Assembly: GCA_030604635.1 (NCBI GenBank)
Contig: JAUVVL010000005.1
Span: forward strand, 1 to 33,330
Length of the DNA: 33,330 nucleotides
Source of the DNA: Desulfobacteraceae bacterium
GTDB taxonomy: Bacteria; Desulfobacterota; Desulfobacteria; Desulfobacterales; UBA11574
Reading direction: 5' to 3'
This document shows, in pieces, positions 17,226 through 31,392 of this stretch. The notes under the pieces are model-generated. The model saw nothing but the letters and a program-made list of their open reading frames with translations, had not been told where the DNA came from and made no database searches. A program made the translations under genes and the position numbers. The stretch's first letter is position 1. The number at the start of each line of letters is the position of its first letter.

Positions 17226-19727
17226 CTATAACTTGACAACCTTTGCCTGTTTTATTTCTTCTTCTTTGAGACTGAAAATTTTATCAATAACTTCAAAGGG
17301 CCTCACAGTTTTACCGGGTTCTGACTTCAGCGTCATCTTCAATCTGTCGGGTGCCGGCAACTCTATGTTTATAACCATCTCTTTTAAATCTATCCTTTTA
17401 ATTTTCCCTTTTCGCCGGGTGCGGGAAAAGATAAATTCGGGACTCTTTGCAAAACATTTTAATTCCTTTTCATCAAAAAAACCATCCCTTTTTGTGACCA
17501 TATAGGTCGCTGACGTCGTCGCTTTACGTGCAGACTTTGCCGGGACAAGCTGACAGTCAAAGACACGAAGACCCTCTGGAAGATGTTCATTGAACCGGTC
17601 TATTATGAACTGCGGTTTAACATTGCCGGCCACCAATATATAAAAACATTCATTCAGACTTTCCATGCCTATGGGAAGTGGGTCTTCAAAAGAGATCCTC
17701 GGCTTTGGATGAAAACCTTCTGAAAATTGAACGGTTATTCCGGCGCGCCGAATGGCTCGTAAAAATATTTTAACCAGTTCAAGATGTCCGAAATACTTTG
17801 CATGGCTCTGCTTTGAATAGGAGATCTTGAGTTTTTTATAAAACGTTTTTTTAAAATCATCTTGCGATAAAGGTTTTTCCGTCTCTTCTTTACAGGTCTC
17901 AAATACCTTTGGTTCAATAAAATCAAAGTCACACACACCGCAGACGCTACAATCACCGCTTCGACAATCGGCTGTAAGTTCTCCCTTTGAGGCCTTTTGC
18001 CATTCGTTTATTAAGAAATTCCTTGTTACCCTGGTATCGATATGATCCCAGGGAAGCGGCTCTGCTAAATCCCTTACACGGGTTGTATAAAAATCGATAT
18101 CCACACCTTCATCGCAAAAAGCCTCTTGCCATAATTTATATTGAAACTTGTCGCTCCAGCCGTCAAATTTACAGCCTTTATTGTATGCAGCCAGCAGTAA
18201 ACGGCTGAGACGCCTGTCACCCCGTGCCCAAAGCCCTTCAAGCATGCTGACTTCAGGACCCTGCCATTTAAAATGAATCCCGGACATTTTTAGGCTTTTT
18301 TGCAACCAGCGTATTTTTTGTTTTGATTCAGCCAGAGTAATCTGAGGAGACCATTGAAATGGCGTATGGGGTTTTGGAATAAAAGTTGCCACACTGACAT
18401 TTATCTTGGCTATGCGCCCATTTGGCCTTTTGATCCCCCGCAGTGTTTTTACTAGATCTACAATCGCCTGGAGATCCTCATCGGTTTCAGTTGGAAGACC
18501 AATCATAAAATAGAGTTTTATCACCCGCCAGCCCAGGCTGAATGCATCTTTAACCGTATCTGCAATCTCTTTTTCCGTAATATTTTTATTAATAACATCC
18601 CGCAGCCGCTGGCTGCCGGCTTCCGGCGCTATGGTAAAACCTGTTTTTCTGACCCTTTTGACAAGGTTCATAAGTTCCGGTGTTAATGTGCCGGCCCGTA
18701 AAGAAGGAAAGGAAACCGCTATATGACCCGACTCACACCGGGCCATCAGGCGCTCCATGAGCGGGACGATACATCCATAATCCCCCGTACTCAGAGATAA
18801 AAGCGATATATCCTCGTAACCGGTTGAAGCAATAGAAGCGTCAGACAGGGCAATCAATGTTTCCGGAGATCGTTCACGAACCGGACGATATATCACCCCG
18901 GCCTGGCAGAAGCGGCATCCTCTGGTGCACCCCCTCGACACTTCAAGACTAAGACGATCATGCACGGGCTTGCCATAATGAATAATAGGCGCTTCAGGGA
19001 AAAATGCCCTGTCAAGATCATCCACAACAGCTCTTTTAACTGTCTGATAATGCGAATATTCGGGATCAATAGTCTGGAAACCGGCTCCGCCAAATTTTGG
19101 GTTAAAAAACATGGGGATATATACACCTTCAATGTCAGACCACATTTTCAAAAGTGTTTCCTTGTCGCTTATATCACTCGTCTTCCATTTAAGCCATATA
19201 CGTGACATCTCCATGATCACATTTTCCCCGTCCCCGACAACCATCGCGTCAAAAAAGTCGGCAACGGGTTCAGGATTACATGTACAGGGACCGCCTGCAA
19301 TGACAAGCGGAAAAGAACCGTCTCTTTGTCGAGCAAAAAAAGGAATGTTTGCCAGATCAAGCATGGTAAGCATATTGGTATAGTTAAGCTCATAAAGTAG
19401 ACTGAAACCGATGATATCAAAGCGATCAAGCGGTTTTTGAGATTCCAGGGACACAAGGGGGATGTCATACGTCCTGAGATAGGCTTCCAAATCAACCGCG
19501 GGGGCAAAAACCCTTTCGGCAGCGATCTCATCATGGCTGTTTAAGATATGATAAAGTATCTGAAGACCTAAATGTGATGTGCCGATTTCATATAGATCCG
19601 GAAAGGCAAGGGCAAAACAGAGTTTAACCTTATCGTGATCCTTTTTGATGGTGTTTATTTCCGAGCCTAAATATCGGCTGGGTTGCTCTACCAGCGGTAA
19701 GATGTCTTGAATGGATGTTATGCTCAT
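17226..19727 (-). CDS. TIGR03960-type radical SAM protein fused to a DUF2344 (TIGR03936) domain
   Basis: SRGCTRGCRFCQAGVIYRPVRER radical SAM motif and C-terminal KISYSKQSHAKYFGHLELVKIFLRAIRRA. Start at MSITSIQD (19727) preferred; the longer N-terminus runs through repeats. Confidence 0.9.
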   Translation of the reverse strand: MSITSIQDILPLVEQPSRYLGSEINTIKKDHDKVKLCFALAFPDLYEIGTSHLGLQILYHILNSHDEIAAERVFAPAVDLEAYLRTYDIPLVSLESQKPLDRFDIIGFSLLYELNYTNMLTMLDLANIPFFARQRDGSFPLVIAGGPCTCNPEPVADFFDAMVVGDGENVIMEMSRIWLKWKTSDISDKETLLKMWSDIEGVYIPMFFNPKFGGAGFQTIDPEYSHYQTVKRAVVDDLDRAFFPEAPIIHYGKPVHDRLSLEVSRGCTRGCRFCQAGVIYRPVRERSPETLIALSDASIASTGYEDISLLSLSTGDYGCIVPLMERLMARCESGHIAVSFPSLRAGTLTPELMNLVKRVRKTGFTIAPEAGSQRLRDVINKNITEKEIADTVKDAFSLGWRVIKLYFMIGLPTETDEDLQAIVDLVKTLRGIKRPNGRIAKINVSVATFIPKPHTPFQWSPQITLAESKQKIRWLQKSLKMSGIHFKWQGPEVSMLEGLWARGDRRLSRLLLAAYNKGCKFDGWSDKFQYKLWQEAFCDEGVDIDFYTTRVRDLAEPLPWDHIDTRVTRNFLINEWQKASKGELTADCRSGDCSVCGVCDFDFIEPKVFETCKEETEKPLSQDDFKKTFYKKLKISYSKQSHAKYFGHLELVKIFLRAIRRAGITVQFSEGFHPKPRISFEDPLPIGMESLNECFYILVAGNVKPQFIIDRFNEHLPEGLRVFDCQLVPAKSARKATTSATYMVTKRDGFFDEKELKCFAKSPEFIFSRTRRKGKIKRIDLKEMVINIELPAPDRLKMTLKSEPGKTVRPFEVIDKIFSLKEEEIKQAKVVKL

Positions 19728-19777
19728 GATATAGAGATATATAAGGAACCGATCAATGTCCCTGTATGGAAGTGAAG

Positions 19778-19824
19778 CCCCCCGCCCTAAAGGGCGGGGG
19801 TTCTGCCTAACGGCAGTGCTTCGC
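19778..19824. repeat. REP-like double-hairpin unit, copy 1
   Basis: CCCCCCGCCCTAAAGGGCGGGGG + TTCTGCCTAACGGCAGTGCTTCGC. Confidence 0.75.
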
Positions 19825-19865
19825 AGCCCGGGTAAGGATTTTTTCAATTTCATATAGCTCCCCTC

Positions 19866-23101: not shown

Positions 23102-23893
23102 TTATTCTCTCATGCACCTAAGCTTCGCAAGATCTTCGGCATACCCGTACAGGTGAAGCCCCTTGCTCTCTACGATCATTTCGCCGTCTTTTACGCCGAT
23201 CTCTCCTGCCATGTATTCTTTGAGATTCTGAATTCCCGCCAAATTGGCGGGCAAGCCCCCCCAAAGATCCCATGAACGAAAATATACAATAAAATGAAGA
23301 GTTTCATCCTGTATGCGGGTGTCGATCGATCGTAAACATGGCGGATCTAGCAGGGTAAGATCTGAAGGATGTGCCACCTGGAGCACCATCTGGTTATTCC
23401 GGCTCCCGAATTTTTTGTAGGTTTGAATAACCCATTCTATCTGATTCAGGCAGAGCTGGCCGTTTTCTTCAAAAACAGCTTTTCCGTCGATATCTCTTTT
23501 GTCGATGATTTCAGTGTTGCCTTCTTCCCACCAGGTCAGTTTAGCACCGGTAAGCGGCGCCGTGGTCAGTCGTTCACCATATGTGTATGATTCACCCGGT
23601 TCCTTGCGCCCGGTCATGAGGTATTCGATATACGACCGTTCGTAACCTTCTCCACCGTAAATGTAAGCCTCTTCGACCGGGTTGGGAATTCCTACTGCCG
23701 GAGGAATATCCGGCAAAAGTGGCTGGGTACCGGGATATTTTACATGACCCATAAAATAATCGTATTCAAGGCGAGTCTGCCCTGCGTATGACCCTCGATC
23801 AATATTAAACCTGCGCCCGTGGTCCAAAATATCATATACTGCCTGGAACCAAAGGTCAGGTAAATCTCTGGCTTGAATCTTATGAACATACAT
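23102..23893 (-). CDS. Thymidylate synthase-like protein
   Basis: DPPCLRSIDTRI (catalytic Cys region), FRSWDLWGGLPANLAG (compare RSxDLxxGxPxN of ThyA) and HLYGYAEDL (HxY). Confidence 0.75.
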   Translation of the reverse strand: MYVHKIQARDLPDLWFQAVYDILDHGRRFNIDRGSYAGQTRLEYDYFMGHVKYPGTQPLLPDIPPAVGIPNPVEEAYIYGGEGYERSYIEYLMTGRKEPGESYTYGERLTTAPLTGAKLTWWEEGNTEIIDKRDIDGKAVFEENGQLCLNQIEWVIQTYKKFGSRNNQMVLQVAHPSDLTLLDPPCLRSIDTRIQDETLHFIVYFRSWDLWGGLPANLAGIQNLKEYMAGEIGVKDGEMIVESKGLHLYGYAEDLAKLRCMRE

Positions 23894-23895
23894 AA

Positions 23896-26334
23896 CTATA
23901 TATCCAGCATGCTTACATCAAGGGCATTGTTGCTGATAAATTCTCTTCGGGGTTCTACCTCTTCTCCCATGAGGACGGTAAAAATTTCATCGGTTTCAAC
24001 AGCATCTTCGACCTTAACCTGCAAAAGGGTTCTCTTTGCCGGATTCATTGTTGTTTCCCACAGCTGTTCGGGATTCATTTCACCAAGACCTTTGTATCGC
24101 TGTAAGCTGAGCCCTTTTTTTCCTTCATCTATAAAAAATGAAAGAAGTGTTTTTTTATCTTCGATACGAACGGAATCTATTTTATCGTCTTTATTAAAAA
24201 CAAAAAACGGAGGATTATCAAATTTTAAAATTTTCTTTGCCAGGATCAGACTTTTCTGAAAATCTTTGGAATATATAAGCCCCCTGCCTACTTTTACTGG
24301 TTTAACATCTTTCTCGGCCGGATCTGTTAATAAACTTTTTTGTTGTCCTGTAAAAGAAGGTACAACTGTCATTTCATATACACTTCTTTCAGGATTCCAG
24401 CTTAAATCACTGACATTATACTCTTTCTCTCTAAAGGTCGCCTTTAGGGCTGACATTTTTTGTTGATTTTGAAGAAAACTTTTATTTTCAACCCCTTCTT
24501 TTATAAGCAATTCAACAAGATCTGTATTTATTCCGCGCTTTTTCAGTCTCGACATAACTGAAAAATACTCAGAAAGATCACAGACAAAAACATAAAGATT
24601 ATGTTCAGGTAATATCGATTCTTCTTTTCCGATCTTAACGCTCTTTATGTTGCAAACCCTCTTTAAAATATGATCATTTAATTCCCCCTCGTTTTTTAGA
24701 TAAATAGCTTTCTTTCCTTTGCCGACTCTAAATAAGGGGGGTTGTGCGATATACAAATACCCTTTATCCACCATCTCTGGCATGTGCCTGTAAAAGAAAG
24801 TTAACAGAAGTGTCCTGATATGAGATCCGTCAACATCAGCATCTGTCATAATAATGGTTTTGTGATACCTGATTTTTTCAATATCGTATTCTTCCTGGCC
24901 AACGCCGGTGCCAAGGACGGTTATTATATTTTTAATCTCCTCGCTTCGTAGAATTTTATCGATGCGGGATTTCTCAACATTTAATATCTTTCCTTTTAAC
25001 GGCAGAATCGCCTGAAACTTTCTATCTCTTCCCTGTTTGGCGCTGCCACCTGCGGAATCACCCTCAACCAGAAATATTTCTCTTTCAGGCGGATCTGAAA
25101 TCTGACATTCCGCCAGCTTGCCGGGAAGTGTTGAATCTATTAAAGCGCCCTGTTTTCTGGCAAGATCCCGCGCATGCTTGGCCGCATCTCTTGCTCTTGA
25201 AGCTTCCACCGCTTTTGCCAATATCTTTTTTGCAGTTGCGGGATTCTCTTCCAAAAATGCACTTAATTTTTCATGTATCAGCGACTCAACGAGGCCTTTA
25301 ACTTCACTGTTCCCGAGCTTTGTCTTTGTTTGACCTTCAAATTGAGGAGATTTCATTTTAACACTTACAACCGCAGCCAATCCTTCCCTAACATCATCTC
25401 CGCCGATCTTGGCCTGTAGATTTTTTGGAAGCCTGCCATTGGTTGCATATTGATTAATAGTTCGCGTCAACGCCGCTTTAAAACCGATAAGATGAAATCC
25501 CCCCTCGGCCGTATTAATATTGTTGGCAAATGAAAACATTTTCTCCGTAAATGTATTATTATATTGTATTGCAACCTCTATCCGAACCCCATTTTTTTCT
25601 CCTTCCATAAAAATGGGTTTATGAAGGGTTGAATGTCTTCTGTTGAGATATTCAACAAATGAAACTATTCCCCCCTTATAAAAAAATTCATCCTTATCAT
25701 CCGAGCGTTCATCTTCTATAGTTATTCTGACCCCTTTATTTAAAAAGGCCAGCTCCCTTAATCTGCGAATCAGTATTTCATAACCGAAATTATCTGTGTC
25801 TAAAATTTCTGTGTCGGGAATAAAATGTACTTTTGTGCCACTTTTTTTTGTTTTGCCTATAACGCTTAGTGCGCTTGTTTTTTTCCCTTTTTCATAGGTC
25901 TGATAATAAATTTTACCGCCGCTATAAATTTCTACTTCCAAAAATTTTGAAAGAGCATTTACCACTGAAACCCCTACGCCGTGAAGCCCTCCTGAAACTT
26001 TGTAAGAATGATCATCAAACTTACCGCCGGAATGAAGCTTAGTCATAACAACTTCAACCGCCGGCATATTTTCTGTTTTTTGAATACCGACAGGGATTCC
26101 CCTTCCATTATCTTCAACGCTCACACTATTACCAGTATGAATTGTAACCTTTATCAGATCACAATATCCTGCCATGGCTTCATCAATACTGTTATCTACA
26201 ACTTCACTGACAAGATGGTGAAGCCCTTCGACACCTACATTACCGATATACATTGCAGGCCTTTTTCTAACCGCCTCAAGGCCCTCGAGAACCTTTATTT
26301 TGTCTGCATCATATGTGTATTGTTCTTTATTCAT
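23896..26334 (-). CDS. gyrB: DNA gyrase subunit B
   Basis: [92 protein letters not shown]. Confidence 0.97.
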
Positions 26335-27449
26335 AATCTCATGGGCATGATTATACTTAAAAAAGTATCGTCGTTCTCTCCTTCAATAATACAGGGTTTT
26401 TCTTCATCAATTATATTTATAACAACCTTTTCGGAATCGATAACGTTCAGTGTTTCAATAAAATACCTGGGGTTAAAGGCAGCTTCAATGGGGTCACCCT
26501 TAAAATCTATAACCATATCTTCCTTAGATTCACCGAAATCTGGATTAACTGCGTTTATAAAAAGTTTGTCGTCTGAGAAATTAAAAATAACGCCTTTGTA
26601 GTCTTCAGAGTAAAATATGGACATTCTTTTTAGCATCATTAAAAAGAGTTCTCTATCCATATGGATTTCATGAGAATCCCCTTTTTTTATAATATCACTG
26701 TATTCTGGAAATTCACCTTCAAGAAGCCGTATAATAATTGTCTCGGCATCCTTTTTAATAATAAAATTATTGTTTTTAAAACCTATTTGAACCGTACCTT
26801 CGGGATCAAGAAACTTTATAGCCTCATTTATTCCCTTTTTCGGTATAATTATATTAGGTCCTTGAGGTAGCTTTATATCTTTTTTATAAAAGCAATCTAC
26901 CTTTGAAAGCCGGTTTCCGTCGGTTGAAACCATTCTAACGATATTTTTATCGTCTTTTTGAATTATTTCAAAATAGATTCCAATAATATGTGCTCTTTTT
27001 TCATCAGAGGCACCGGGGATAATAACAGTTCTATCTATCATCTTTTTAAAAACAGACGAATCTATATTAAAAAATTCAACATCTTCTATCTGGGGTGATT
27101 CAGGAAAATCATCCGGATTCATTCCAACAATATTATATTCTACTTTTTCATTGCTGATTTTTATCCAATGGTTTTCAAATTCTTCTATGTGAATTTCATC
27201 ACTTGGAAATTCTCTTACTATTTCGTAAAACTTTCTGGCATTAATCGCTATTGTGCCCTGTGATTCGATGGTTGCAGGATATAATCCTTCATAACCGGTT
27301 TCAAGATCAGTTGCTATTATTGTTATACCGTAATTATTTGTCTTTATTAAAACATTTGTAGTTATAGCCAGGTTGCTTTTTCTGCCGGTTATTCCTTGAA
27401 CCTTTGACAAAACATCTAAAATATCATCTTTTTTAATAATAAATTTCAT
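26331..27449 (-). CDS. dnaN: DNA polymerase III subunit beta (sliding clamp)
   Basis: [20 protein letters not shown] start, [10 protein letters not shown]-terminal IIMPMRL; ATGA overlap with gyrB. Confidence 0.96.
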
Positions 27450-27499
27450 AATCAGTTCCTATATTAATTATATAGATTCATATATTATAAATAAGTGGT

Positions 27500-27633
27500 G
27501 TTAATAAGTATAATAACAGTTTAAATTGTTTATCTTATAGGGAAAATCAAATATTAAATGGTTAATAAAGTATAATAAAAAAATATAAAAATATTAAGTT
27601 ATGAAAAGAAAAAAAATAGTTGTTAATAAGTAA
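27500..27633. repeat. Three GTTAATAA-core repeats spaced exactly 61 bp (candidate origin/iteron array)
   Basis: GTTAATAAGTATAATAAC (27500), GTTAATAAAGTATAATAAA (27561), GTTAATAAGTAAAGAGTTATT (27622). Confidence 0.5.
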
Positions 27634-27680
27634 AGAGTTATTGAAAAAATATCAATATAAAAACAGAGATATTCCTGTAT

Positions 27681-27802
27681 TACCTAAATTTTGCAAGCGT
27701 CGAGTTTGCCGCCCCGGTGAAATAGGCTTCGCATTTCACTGGGCAGGGAGATGCAATGTCTATTTTAATCTTTTTAAGAATAATTTATGCAGATTTTAGG
27801 TA
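27681..27802. repeat. Fold-back element in the dnaN/EndoQ-UvrD gap with an internal CCCCGGTGAAAT hairpin
   Basis: Ends TACCTAAATTTTGCA / TGCAGATTTTAGGTA (13/15 match); internal CCCCGGTGAAAT...ATTTCACTGGGCAGGG (27712-27748). Confidence 0.65.
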
Positions 27803-27848
27803 TTAACAAAGCGGCCCTATATAGGAAGCTCTATAGGTACCTTTTTAA

Positions 27849-27872
27849 AATAATACTATATATAGTATTATT
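27849..27872. promoter_or_regulatory. 24-bp perfect AT-rich palindrome
   Basis: AATAATACTATA|TATAGTATTATT; extra half-site TAATACTATATA at 27881. Confidence 0.45.
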
Positions 27873-27960
27873 ATGTTTATTAATACTATATACTGTTTAT
27901 AATCAGGTTACAAGAAGTTTTTACTATTTATGGAATAACAAAACATGATATAAAAAAAAT

Positions 27961-30900
27961 ATGAAATTTATAGCCGATTTCCATGTTCATTCCCGGTTTT
28001 CAAGGGCCACAGCAAAAAACCTTGATTTTGAAAACCTATACATAGCAGCCCGGCTAAAGGGTATAACGGTTGTAGGAACCGGCGATTTTACACATCCAGG
28101 CTGGTTTGCGGAAATCAAGGAAAAATTGGTTCCGGCCGAACCAGGACTATTTAAGCTAAGGGATGATATATCAAAGATATGCGATCAACAGGTTCCACCG
28201 TCATGTCGCGGGAAAGTCCGCTTTTTACTGGTTTCCGAAATCAGCAACATATATAAAAAAAATAGCAAAACCCGCAAAAATCATAATCTTGTATTTCTAC
28301 CCGACCTTGATCTGGCAGAGAACTTTATTTCAAAATTAGATAAAATTGGAAATATAAAATCAGATGGTAGGCCGATTCTTGGTCTGGACGCAAAAGACCT
28401 TCTTGAAATTCTCCTCGAGACCTCAGACCAGGGGTTCCTAATACCTGCTCATATCTGGACACCATGGTTTTCGCTCCTGGGCTCAAAATCCGGCTTTGAT
28501 TCCATAGAAGAATGTTTTGAAGATTTGGCGTCAAATATCTTTGCCGTTGAAACCGGACTTTCATCCGATCCTGCCATGAACTGGCGCGTGTCAGGTCTCG
28601 ACGGACTGACCCTGATATCCAATTCCGATGCCCATTCCCCTTTAAAACTCGGGAGGGAGGCAAACCTTTTTGATACAGAACTTTCTTATAACACAATAAA
28701 GTCTGCCATAAAGAACGGCGACCCCGAACATTTTCTGGGAACTTTTGAGTTTTATCCCGAAGAGGGGAAGTATCACCTTGATGGTCACAGAAATTGTAAT
28801 GTTCGACTATGGCCGGAAAAGACCCGGGAAAAGGGAGGTATATGCCCGGTATGCCAAAAACCACTGACCCTGGGTGTTTTATACAGGGTTGAGGAGCTGG
28901 CCGATCGGCCGGAGGGTGAGAAACCCAAAAAACATCACCCATTTAATAATATTATTCCCCTTATAGAAATCTTGTCGGAAGTTTTAGAGGCCGGTCCGGG
29001 AACAAAGAAGGTCATGAGATATTACAGGGCGCTTCTTGAGAAATTGGGGCCGGAATTTAAAATTCTTAATAACTTGCAAACAGAAACCATTAATTCCTCC
29101 GGCGGCCCCTTGCTGGGTGAGGCTATCTCAAGAATGCGCCGGAACGAGATTGTTGTTTTACCCGGATATGACGGTGAATTCGGAAAAATAAAAATTTTTA
29201 ATCAGCACGAGCGGGGAAAAATACTCGGCCAAAAAACGCTTTTTGTTCTGTCGCCGCCAGAACCTGGTTTACAAAACAAAGAAAAACAGAAAAAAAAGAA
29301 ACTGCATATACGTGACACGGACAAGCCCTACCAATCAGGCCAACAAACACGTTGTTTTCATCCACCCTTGCAAGACAAGGAAGCAGAATCCGATCCAGGC
29401 GAGCTAAACCAGAGACAGCGTCAGGCCGTAGAGTATGAACGGGGGCCTTTGATGATTGTTGCAGGTCCTGGAACCGGCAAAACACGCACACTGACCCACC
29501 GTATAGCAAACCTTATGACCGATAAAGGAGTTTCACCGCAAAACATTCTGGCCGTCACCTTCACAAATAAAGCGGCTCGGGAAATGAAAGACAGGCTCAA
29601 AAGTCTTATTGGTGAAACAAAGCCTCTTCCTTTTGTTGGTACATTTCACAGTTTTTGCTATAAATTGTTAAATGATTACAATGAAAAAACCAGCAAGATT
29701 ATTGATGAGGATGATCGGAAATCTTTAATTTCTGACGCGATAAGAAATGTTGAGCGGACAGGTATCAAAGTTTCCATAAAATACAAAGCACTGTTAGGCT
29801 GGATTATATCCGTCAAACAGAAGATACTCGAACCGAACGAGTGTCTTGATGAAATTGACGTTTCAGAAAAGCAATTTTATTTAAAGGTTTATAGCTCTTA
29901 CCAGAATCTGTTATCCATGCAGGGCCTATACGACTATGAGGACCTGGTGTTTAATATTGTGCGGCTTTTTGAAACCGACGAACAGTTTGCCGGAAGATAC
30001 CGGGATCTTTATAAGTTTGTTTTTGTGGATGAATATCAGGATTTAAACCATGGCCAGTACCGGATTATAAATGCCCTTGCTCCGCCAGGTGCAACAGGCA
30101 GAGATATTTGTGTTATCGGAGATCCGGATCAGTCGATTTACGGGTTTAGGGGTTCGGATGTTAAACATTTTAAAAGTTTTATAAACGATTATCCGGACGC
30201 CAAGGTGGTGAAACTGACTCGCAACTATCGTTCGACCCAGACAATTCTCGACGCATCGTATCACGTGGTAAACGCTCTCGAAAAAGATGATACCAGATCC
30301 CGAATATATTCTCAGGCCGGCGGCGCCAAAACCATCAGCGTGATTGAAACAGGTTCGGAAAAAGCCGAAGCCGTGGCTGTGGGAAAGACAATAGAATATT
30401 TAATCGGCGGCATCGGTTTTCATTCCCTGGATTTCGGCAGCGTTGACAACCAACAACAGATCACGCACCGAAGCTTTTCTGATTTTGCCGTATTATTCCG
30501 CACAGCCGATCAGAGCAGGATTTTTTCAGAAGTTTTTGATGCAGCGGGTATTCCGTATCAGATTGTTAGCAGAAAAAATATTTTCAACGCAAAAGGCGTA
30601 TCAGAACTGATTTCATTATTAAAAACCATCGAAGGGTCAGGCTGTTATGCGGATTTTGAAAGAACCATAGATTTAACGCAAACAAATATCAGCAAACAGA
30701 GCATGGAAATTTTTAAAAGCTGGTGTTACAAGAACAACCTTACAATCTCGTCGGCCATAGACAATGCACGGCGGTTTCCCGTCAGCGGTATGAGCAAGAA
30801 CCGGCAAATCAGGCTGTGTGAATTTTTGGACGGTTTTTTGTCGATGAAAAAAAAGATCAAGGGGCTGACGGTTGAAAAAAAGCTGATTTTTCTTGCGGAA

Positions 30901-31392
30901 AGCACCAAGCTTTCGGAAATCATAAACAGCAGCCCAAAAGCAGAAGAAGCCATAAACCGGCTGATTGATCTGTCAAGAACGCTTGATAATAATATTTCTG
31001 ATTTTTTCTCTATGACTGCACTCCAGACCGATACAGACACATACACAGCCAAGGCTGAGAAGGTTGCATTCATGACAATGCATGCCGCTAAAGGACTTGA
31101 ATTCCCGGTGGTTTTTGTTGCCGGCTGTGAAAGTGGTTTTATACCGTTTAAACGATCAGACAAAGACTCAACAGATATTGACGAAGAAAGACGGCTCTTT
31201 TTTGTTGCCATGACCCGCGCCAAAGAACGGCTCTATTTGACATGTGCCAAAAAACGAAAAATTTACGGCAAAACAGAAAAACGGACACTTTCCCCCTTTG
31301 TAGGAGAAATCGAAGAACACCTGAGAACACATGAAGAGCCCGCTTTGGGAAAGAAAAGAAAGGACGGGCATACACAGATGAAGCTTTTTTAA
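27961..31392 (+). CDS. Endonuclease Q-like PHP domain fused to UvrD/PcrA-type helicase; C-terminal QMKLF
   Basis: N-terminal PHP motifs (DFHVHSRFS, GTGDFTHPGW, SNSDAHS), Cys-rich CNVRLW...CPVCQKP; helicase motifs GPGTGKT, DEYQD, GDPDQSIYGFRG, LTRNYRST, VAMTRAKERLYL. Confidence 0.88.
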   Translation: MKFIADFHVHSRFSRATAKNLDFENLYIAARLKGITVVGTGDFTHPGWFAEIKEKLVPAEPGLFKLRDDISKICDQQVPPSCRGKVRFLLVSEISNIYKKNSKTRKNHNLVFLPDLDLAENFISKLDKIGNIKSDGRPILGLDAKDLLEILLETSDQGFLIPAHIWTPWFSLLGSKSGFDSIEECFEDLASNIFAVETGLSSDPAMNWRVSGLDGLTLISNSDAHSPLKLGREANLFDTELSYNTIKSAIKNGDPEHFLGTFEFYPEEGKYHLDGHRNCNVRLWPEKTREKGGICPVCQKPLTLGVLYRVEELADRPEGEKPKKHHPFNNIIPLIEILSEVLEAGPGTKKVMRYYRALLEKLGPEFKILNNLQTETINSSGGPLLGEAISRMRRNEIVVLPGYDGEFGKIKIFNQHERGKILGQKTLFVLSPPEPGLQNKEKQKKKKLHIRDTDKPYQSGQQTRCFHPPLQDKEAESDPGELNQRQRQAVEYERGPLMIVAGPGTGKTRTLTHRIANLMTDKGVSPQNILAVTFTNKAAREMKDRLKSLIGETKPLPFVGTFHSFCYKLLNDYNEKTSKIIDEDDRKSLISDAIRNVERTGIKVSIKYKALLGWIISVKQKILEPNECLDEIDVSEKQFYLKVYSSYQNLLSMQGLYDYEDLVFNIVRLFETDEQFAGRYRDLYKFVFVDEYQDLNHGQYRIINALAPPGATGRDICVIGDPDQSIYGFRGSDVKHFKSFINDYPDAKVVKLTRNYRSTQTILDASYHVVNALEKDDTRSRIYSQAGGAKTISVIETGSEKAEAVAVGKTIEYLIGGIGFHSLDFGSVDNQQQITHRSFSDFAVLFRTADQSRIFSEVFDAAGIPYQIVSRKNIFNAKGVSELISLLKTIEGSGCYADFERTIDLTQTNISKQSMEIFKSWCYKNNLTISSAIDNARRFPVSGMSKNRQIRLCEFLDGFLSMKKKIKGLTVEKKLIFLAESTKLSEIINSSPKAEEAINRLIDLSRTLDNNISDFFSMTALQTDTDTYTAKAEKVAFMTMHAAKGLEFPVVFVAGCESGFIPFKRSDKDSTDIDEERRLFFVAMTRAKERLYLTCAKKRKIYGKTEKRTLSPFVGEIEEHLRTHEEPALGKKRKDGHTQMKLF

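Follow-up and report, generated by a model that had tools for sequence, protein, structure and literature searches.

What an EndoQ-like endonuclease and a UvrD-type helicase do when joined in one polypeptide, and whether the last residues of that polypeptide tie it to the sliding clamp, are the questions raised by a locus in a Desulfobacteraceae bacterium (contig JAUVVL010000005.1). The window, that is, the whole stretch of 33,330 nucleotides analysed here, contains at 27961-31392 (+) a single open reading frame with an ATG start, encoding 1,143 amino acids that end in HTQMKLF before a TAA stop, exactly as the first-pass annotation had proposed. The protein comprises an EndoQ module (residues 1-421; 27961-29223, +), a lysine-rich linker (residues 429-480; 29245-29400, +), a UvrD/PcrA-type helicase (residues 481-1122; 29401-31326, +) and a C-terminal clamp-binding-like motif, QMKLF, conserved in fused relatives (residues 1139-1143; 31375-31389, +). 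In the AlphaFold2 model (mean pLDDT 84), values fall below 50 in the tail (1129-1143) and at about 427-479, so that the linker, also claimed in that annotation, is both present and disordered in the model.

The EndoQ half was assigned by phmmer matches (5zb8 and 7k30), alignments and structure comparison. Residues 5-421 match PfuEndoQ (5zb8) with an E-value of 1.2e-50 and ∼31% identity, and Foldseek returned the same enzyme with a target-normalised TM-score of 0.88; the PHP-type catalytic domain, the Zn ribbon and the C-terminal domain of the EndoQ fold are all represented. The three essential catalytic residues of PfuEndoQ, E76, H84 and H139 (PMC8307549), correspond in the phmmer alignment to E93, H108 and H164. 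In the base pocket, G169 and S171 are read from that alignment as G199 and S201, and all five positions are invariant in an alignment of 49 fused relatives. The EndoQ-like identity claimed from the sequence is thereby upheld, and the loss of active-site residues that had been named as a possible objection is not seen. What had been called a CxxC segment is the ribbon H276/C279/C295/C298 (C295xxC298), aligned with the CSRC..CPKC ribbon of PfuEndoQ. The Pfam PHP model gave no match to the protein in a Pfam profile search, and TIGR00375 scored 167 bits against a curated cut-off of 326.6, a naming threshold for a 'hypothetical equivalog' rather than a biochemical definition; in control genomes TIGR00375 had matches in three and passed the cut-off in only two. 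Family names alone would therefore miss the EndoQ half, whose nicking activity is predicted from fold and catalytic residues.

The helicase half, likewise claimed beforehand, is equally clear from profile, sequence and Foldseek matches. Both UvrD domains, N- and C-terminal (PF00580 and PF13361), score above cut-off, residues 481-1122 match PcrA/UvrD (1pjr) with an E-value of 6.3e-97, and Foldseek gives target-normalised TM-scores to UvrD structures of up to about 0.88. Walker A, DExx and the downstream motifs that define SF1A helicases are kept, and the residues invariant across the 49-sequence alignment include G504, G506, K507, T508, D690, E691, Q693 and D694 as well as G720, D721, P722, Q724 and R757. 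The match to PcrA stops at residue 646 of 724, with no PcrA/UvrD-type C-terminal region beyond it, and TIGR01073 (487 versus 911 bits, match ending at 640/725) and TIGR01075 (371 versus 1144 bits, ending at 635/715) both remain below their curated cut-offs.

Conservation of the C-terminal QxxLF among orthologues had been suggested as a check on the clamp idea, and it proved extensive. Relatives were collected by genome search and from the GTDB contig collection, giving 134 distinct complete fused proteins. Within the last 15 residues, Q[LM]x[LM]F occurs in 105 of the 134 and the looser Qxx[LMIF][FLIYMW] in 125, the motif forming the very last five residues in 83. Shuffled tails yield 0.0013 (strict form) and 0.058 (loose form) per tail, figures that are not probabilities because the fused relatives are not independent of one another, and the remainder of the same proteins gives an expectation of 0.0006 for the strict form; a chance match of the C-terminus is ruled out by these comparisons. 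In the 49-sequence alignment, whose members come from several phyla and are 40-62% identical to the window protein, every sequence has Gln1139 and at least 90% have Leu1142. Position 2 is L or M in 117 of the 125, and the codons of the motif differ synonymously within the family while its residues stay unchanged. The residues directly before it are freely variable and the tail is otherwise variable and disordered, placing a conserved QxxLF in a flexible, accessible segment. Its sequence fits the published clamp-binding consensus, QL[S/D]LF or QxxLF (PMC12309361; PMC4549789). Among the nine exceptions to the loose form is a gene with a frameshift (L015); most others have a displaced or altered motif, such as QLSLL (L198), QPHLF (L066) and THLSLF (L090). 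Five actinobacterial fusions (L181, L187, L192, L197 and L198) have QLRLL, QLSLL or QLTLI at or close to the C-terminus; the replacement of Phe by Leu or Ile may mean that their clamps prefer a different peptide. Of about 16 stand-alone UvrD-type helicases in the window genome and its relatives, none has a QxxLF-type end, which rules out the motif as a general feature of UvrD helicases.

A second copy, overlooked in the first-pass annotation, lies directly after the last EndoQ element: Q424-KTL-F428 (residues 424-428; 29230-29244, +), at the site where stand-alone bacterial EndoQs often end in QLSLF, QLTLF, QMGLF and similar sequences. Counted up to 30 residues away from the conserved GYDGxYG segment, Qxx[LMIF][FLIYMW] is found internally in 100 of 131 fusions, versus 8% in shuffles, and 94 fused proteins carry both the terminal and the internal motif. 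Position 2 is relaxed here, with K, G and Q common, and the lysine of QKTLF may mean a low clamp affinity, judging from its sequence. In three Desulfotignum fusions (L147, L148 and L150) the internal region reads LQLQMTLGGK, with no QxxLF, and the terminal QLELF or QLEMF is kept.

The two halves also occur as separate genes. Of 44 complete stand-alone EndoQs, 15 are followed immediately, on the same strand, by a uvrD-like gene or its remnant, and in 12 of these 15 pairs the downstream UvrD ends in Qxx[LF]F (QMKLF, QLTLF, QMELF, QLKFF or similar); in the remaining pairs UvrD is degenerate (L034 and L084) or has NQPALF further in (L174). EndoQ's own motif is present in 14 of 15 proteins with a linked uvrD versus 8 of 25 without (Fisher p 2e-4, not tree-corrected). 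When fusions are counted as linked and tree-independent pairs are compared, 9.0 of 14 support the association of the EndoQ-end motif with linked uvrD and 0.1 oppose it (median sign-test p 0.004), a comparison that slightly helps the linked side, as residues always follow the EndoQ end in fusions and maybe not in solitary EndoQs. A requirement of the fold for the internal motif is unlikely, since 17 of the 25 EndoQs without linked uvrD have no motif. Each module thus appears, from these sequences, to tend to retain a clamp tag, whether fused or separate.

It could be argued that the QxxLF ends, though genuine, have a partner other than DnaN, or that they are hydrophobic caps with no partner at all. 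The pairing of motif and DnaN is read from sequence, and the frequent K, G or Q at position 2 of the internal motif fits such a view. Against it, the ends match the consensus published for clamp binding, Q, L and F being retained amid variable flanks, the motif closes both proteins when they are separate, and solitary EndoQs can be without the tail altogether, so that the tail is not needed for the fold; we regard this explanation as very improbable. The DnaN of the window (26331-27449, −; TIGR00663 above cut-off) was compared with the E. coli clamp at positions that we take to be its peptide-pocket residues, most of which are conserved. R152, T172, G174, R176, L177, P242, N320, Y323, M362, P363, M364 and R365 are kept, L155I, V247I and V360I are conservative changes, and H175N, R246D, V344E and S346P are differences (E. 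coli numbering). The DinB of the same genome carries PVQMDIF, plausibly, by its sequence, a Pol IV clamp motif.

The dnaN gene is divergent from the fusion gene, 511 nt away. The region between them (27450-27960) has 24% GC, a GC-skew minimum and four DnaA-like boxes with one mismatch each (0.88 expected; four were reached in 4 of 300 shuffles). Because of the skew minimum and the boxes, it is a candidate replication origin. The divergent arrangement across a shared intergenic region, put forward in the first-pass annotation, holds at this locus; as a general feature it is ruled out, as 26 of the 176 loci with sufficient flanking sequence have a divergent dnaN upstream, and by their records all 26 belong to the lineage of the window. 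Elsewhere in the window, a divergent thymidylate-synthase-like protein is encoded directly downstream of gyrB (23102-23893, −; PF00303, E 3.7e-11, C-terminal half only), possibly relevant to dUTP and uracil; a radical SAM protein (Radical_SAM_N2 plus Radical_SAM) is fused to DUF2344 (17226-19853, −); and an adenylate/guanylate cyclase domain is found with TPR repeats (429-2321, −).

UvrD-type helicases act at replication forks, and a gene located at a candidate origin beside dnaN, as it is in the window's lineage, might have Rep/UvrD-like fork maintenance as its main job, the clamp motif only bringing the helicase to forks and EndoQ being a passenger. This is unlikely: the catalytic residues of EndoQ are invariant, EndoQ bears a motif of its own, the other UvrD paralogues have none, and several relatives retain EndoQ with UvrD lost or degenerate. 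Such relatives belong to the window's own family, and in some of them EndoQ still lies beside dnaN, so the helicase is dispensable there. In L034, L035, L084 and L015, UvrD is lost, degenerate or frameshifted, and EndoQ remains with a lysine-rich stub or the internal QxxLF. The EndoQ tree requires 21 changes between the fused and the stand-alone state, to which no direction was assigned and of which at least 15 are forced by well supported branches, ruling out a single clean fusion event.

Of 128 genomes from the window's phylum, 90 have EndoQ, about 37 of them in the fused form, as judged by open-frame length. Fused forms were also found in records labelled Chloroflexi, KSB1, Binatia, Gemmatimonadetes, Actinobacteria, Planctomycetes, Latescibacterota, Myxococcota and Elusimicrobia, many of them metagenome bins whose taxon labels may err; cultured carriers include Desulfonema magnum, Saccharothrix algeriensis and Saccharopolyspora hirsuta. 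By these counts EndoQ is common in bacteria, in contrast to the limited groups described in an earlier report, in which the Bacillus pumilus enzyme was active (PMC6202378). A search of a plasmid collection gave no match at E ≤ 1e-100, by which plasmid carriage is ruled out. This distribution bears on whether the fusion could be an anti-phage or anti-mobile-DNA system, in which EndoQ would attack foreign DNA rich in uracil or hypoxanthine, to be unwound by UvrD. A review cites an antiviral role of Bacillus EndoQ as possible (PMC8307549), and the UvrD half matches GajB models. The GajB matches, however, are limited to the generic UvrD core, the window showed neither GajA nor another defence gene beside the fusion, and the prevalence of EndoQ in the phylum, the housekeeping surroundings (gyrB and dnaN) and the result of the plasmid search all speak against defence, which we consider quite unlikely.

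Taken together, these results make it likely that the EndoQ–UvrD fusion is an enzyme for repairing deaminated bases that works docked to the beta clamp, held there probably by the tags after each half. The clamp-tethered nickase/helicase envisaged in the first-pass annotation is strengthened by the internal motif, the split pairs and the motif-free UvrD paralogues, while the general linkage to dnaN falls away. From the homologies and motifs we infer DnaN binding, nicking, unwinding direction and resynthesis as follows. The EndoQ module would cut on the 5′ side of an AP site or of hypoxanthine, uracil or xanthine, and the 3′-OH so formed could prime synthesis; because the cut is 5′ to the lesion, the damaged base would stay on the downstream strand, at its 5′ end. 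The UvrD module, a 3′-to-5′ motor, would then start at the nick, run along the intact strand and strip off the one with the lesion, much as UvrD does when it sets out from a nick during mismatch repair (PMC8744996). The clamp, through QKTLF and QMKLF, would keep enzyme, nick and clamp-bound polymerase together, so that the patch could be resynthesised, the flap being removed by other nucleases. All 40 relatives searched have a UDG-family protein. This rules out the fusion as a substitute for uracil glycosylase, uracil repair by the fusion would be redundant, and for the same reason hypoxanthine and xanthine may, as a guess, be the more important substrates.

More tentatively, and with rather less than even confidence, the two motifs could form a hand-off device on the two peptide clefts of the clamp dimer, one chain filling both clefts or moving between them; the EndoQ-end motif would correspond to the incision state and the UvrD-end motif to the unwinding state that follows. 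If so, the clamp would programme a self-sufficient route for excising deaminated bases, which many bacterial phyla have retained either in fused form or as an operon. These observations bear on what follows the EndoQ nick, after which the downstream strand still begins with the damaged base: the conserved fusion or pairing of EndoQ with a helicase, both clamp-tagged, suggests that a UvrD dedicated to this step does the unwinding while on the clamp. They point to a little-noticed DNA repair route, and the cultured carriers make direct testing possible.

Part of this picture is already known. Archaeal EndoQ binds PCNA through a C-terminal PIP box (Kd 55 nM) and is stimulated by it (PMC4858679), and the Pyrococcus abyssi protein was found with PCNA (PMC3820547); for bacterial EndoQ, beta-clamp-like consensus sequences were noted, untested there, in PMC4858679. 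In the literature searched, which covered few subscription papers and no supplements, no mention was found of the EndoQ–UvrD fusion, of the operon or of the two clamp-like motifs, which are new relative to it. With the archaeal enzymes (PfuEndoQ and TkoEndoQ; PMC4858679) the window protein shares the PHP-type core, the Zn ribbon, the catalytic Glu/His/His and a sliding-clamp peptide right after the core, its QKTLF occupying the position of the archaeal PIP box. It differs from them in the bacterial clamp-type motif, the fusion to UvrD, the second motif at the far end and its modest identity. Bacterial EndoQ (Bacillus pumilus) similarly has a probable beta-clamp motif ending the EndoQ module, whereas the accessible parts of PMC6202378 and PMC4858679 describe EndoQ alone, mentioning no helicase fusion or operon. 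Among SF1A helicases (UvrD, PcrA and Rep), PcrA is the nearest solved relative and all helicase motifs are shared, but the fusion has a short disordered QxxLF tail where the C-terminal region of PcrA/UvrD would begin, unlike the UvrD paralogues of the same genomes. The closest parallel in logic, as far as sequence tells, would be beta-clamp-dependent mismatch repair (MutS/MutL and UvrD), with its clamp-linked nick, unwinding by UvrD, excision and resynthesis; in contrast to that system, the fusion would place lesion recognition, incision and helicase on one chain and the nick at the lesion itself.
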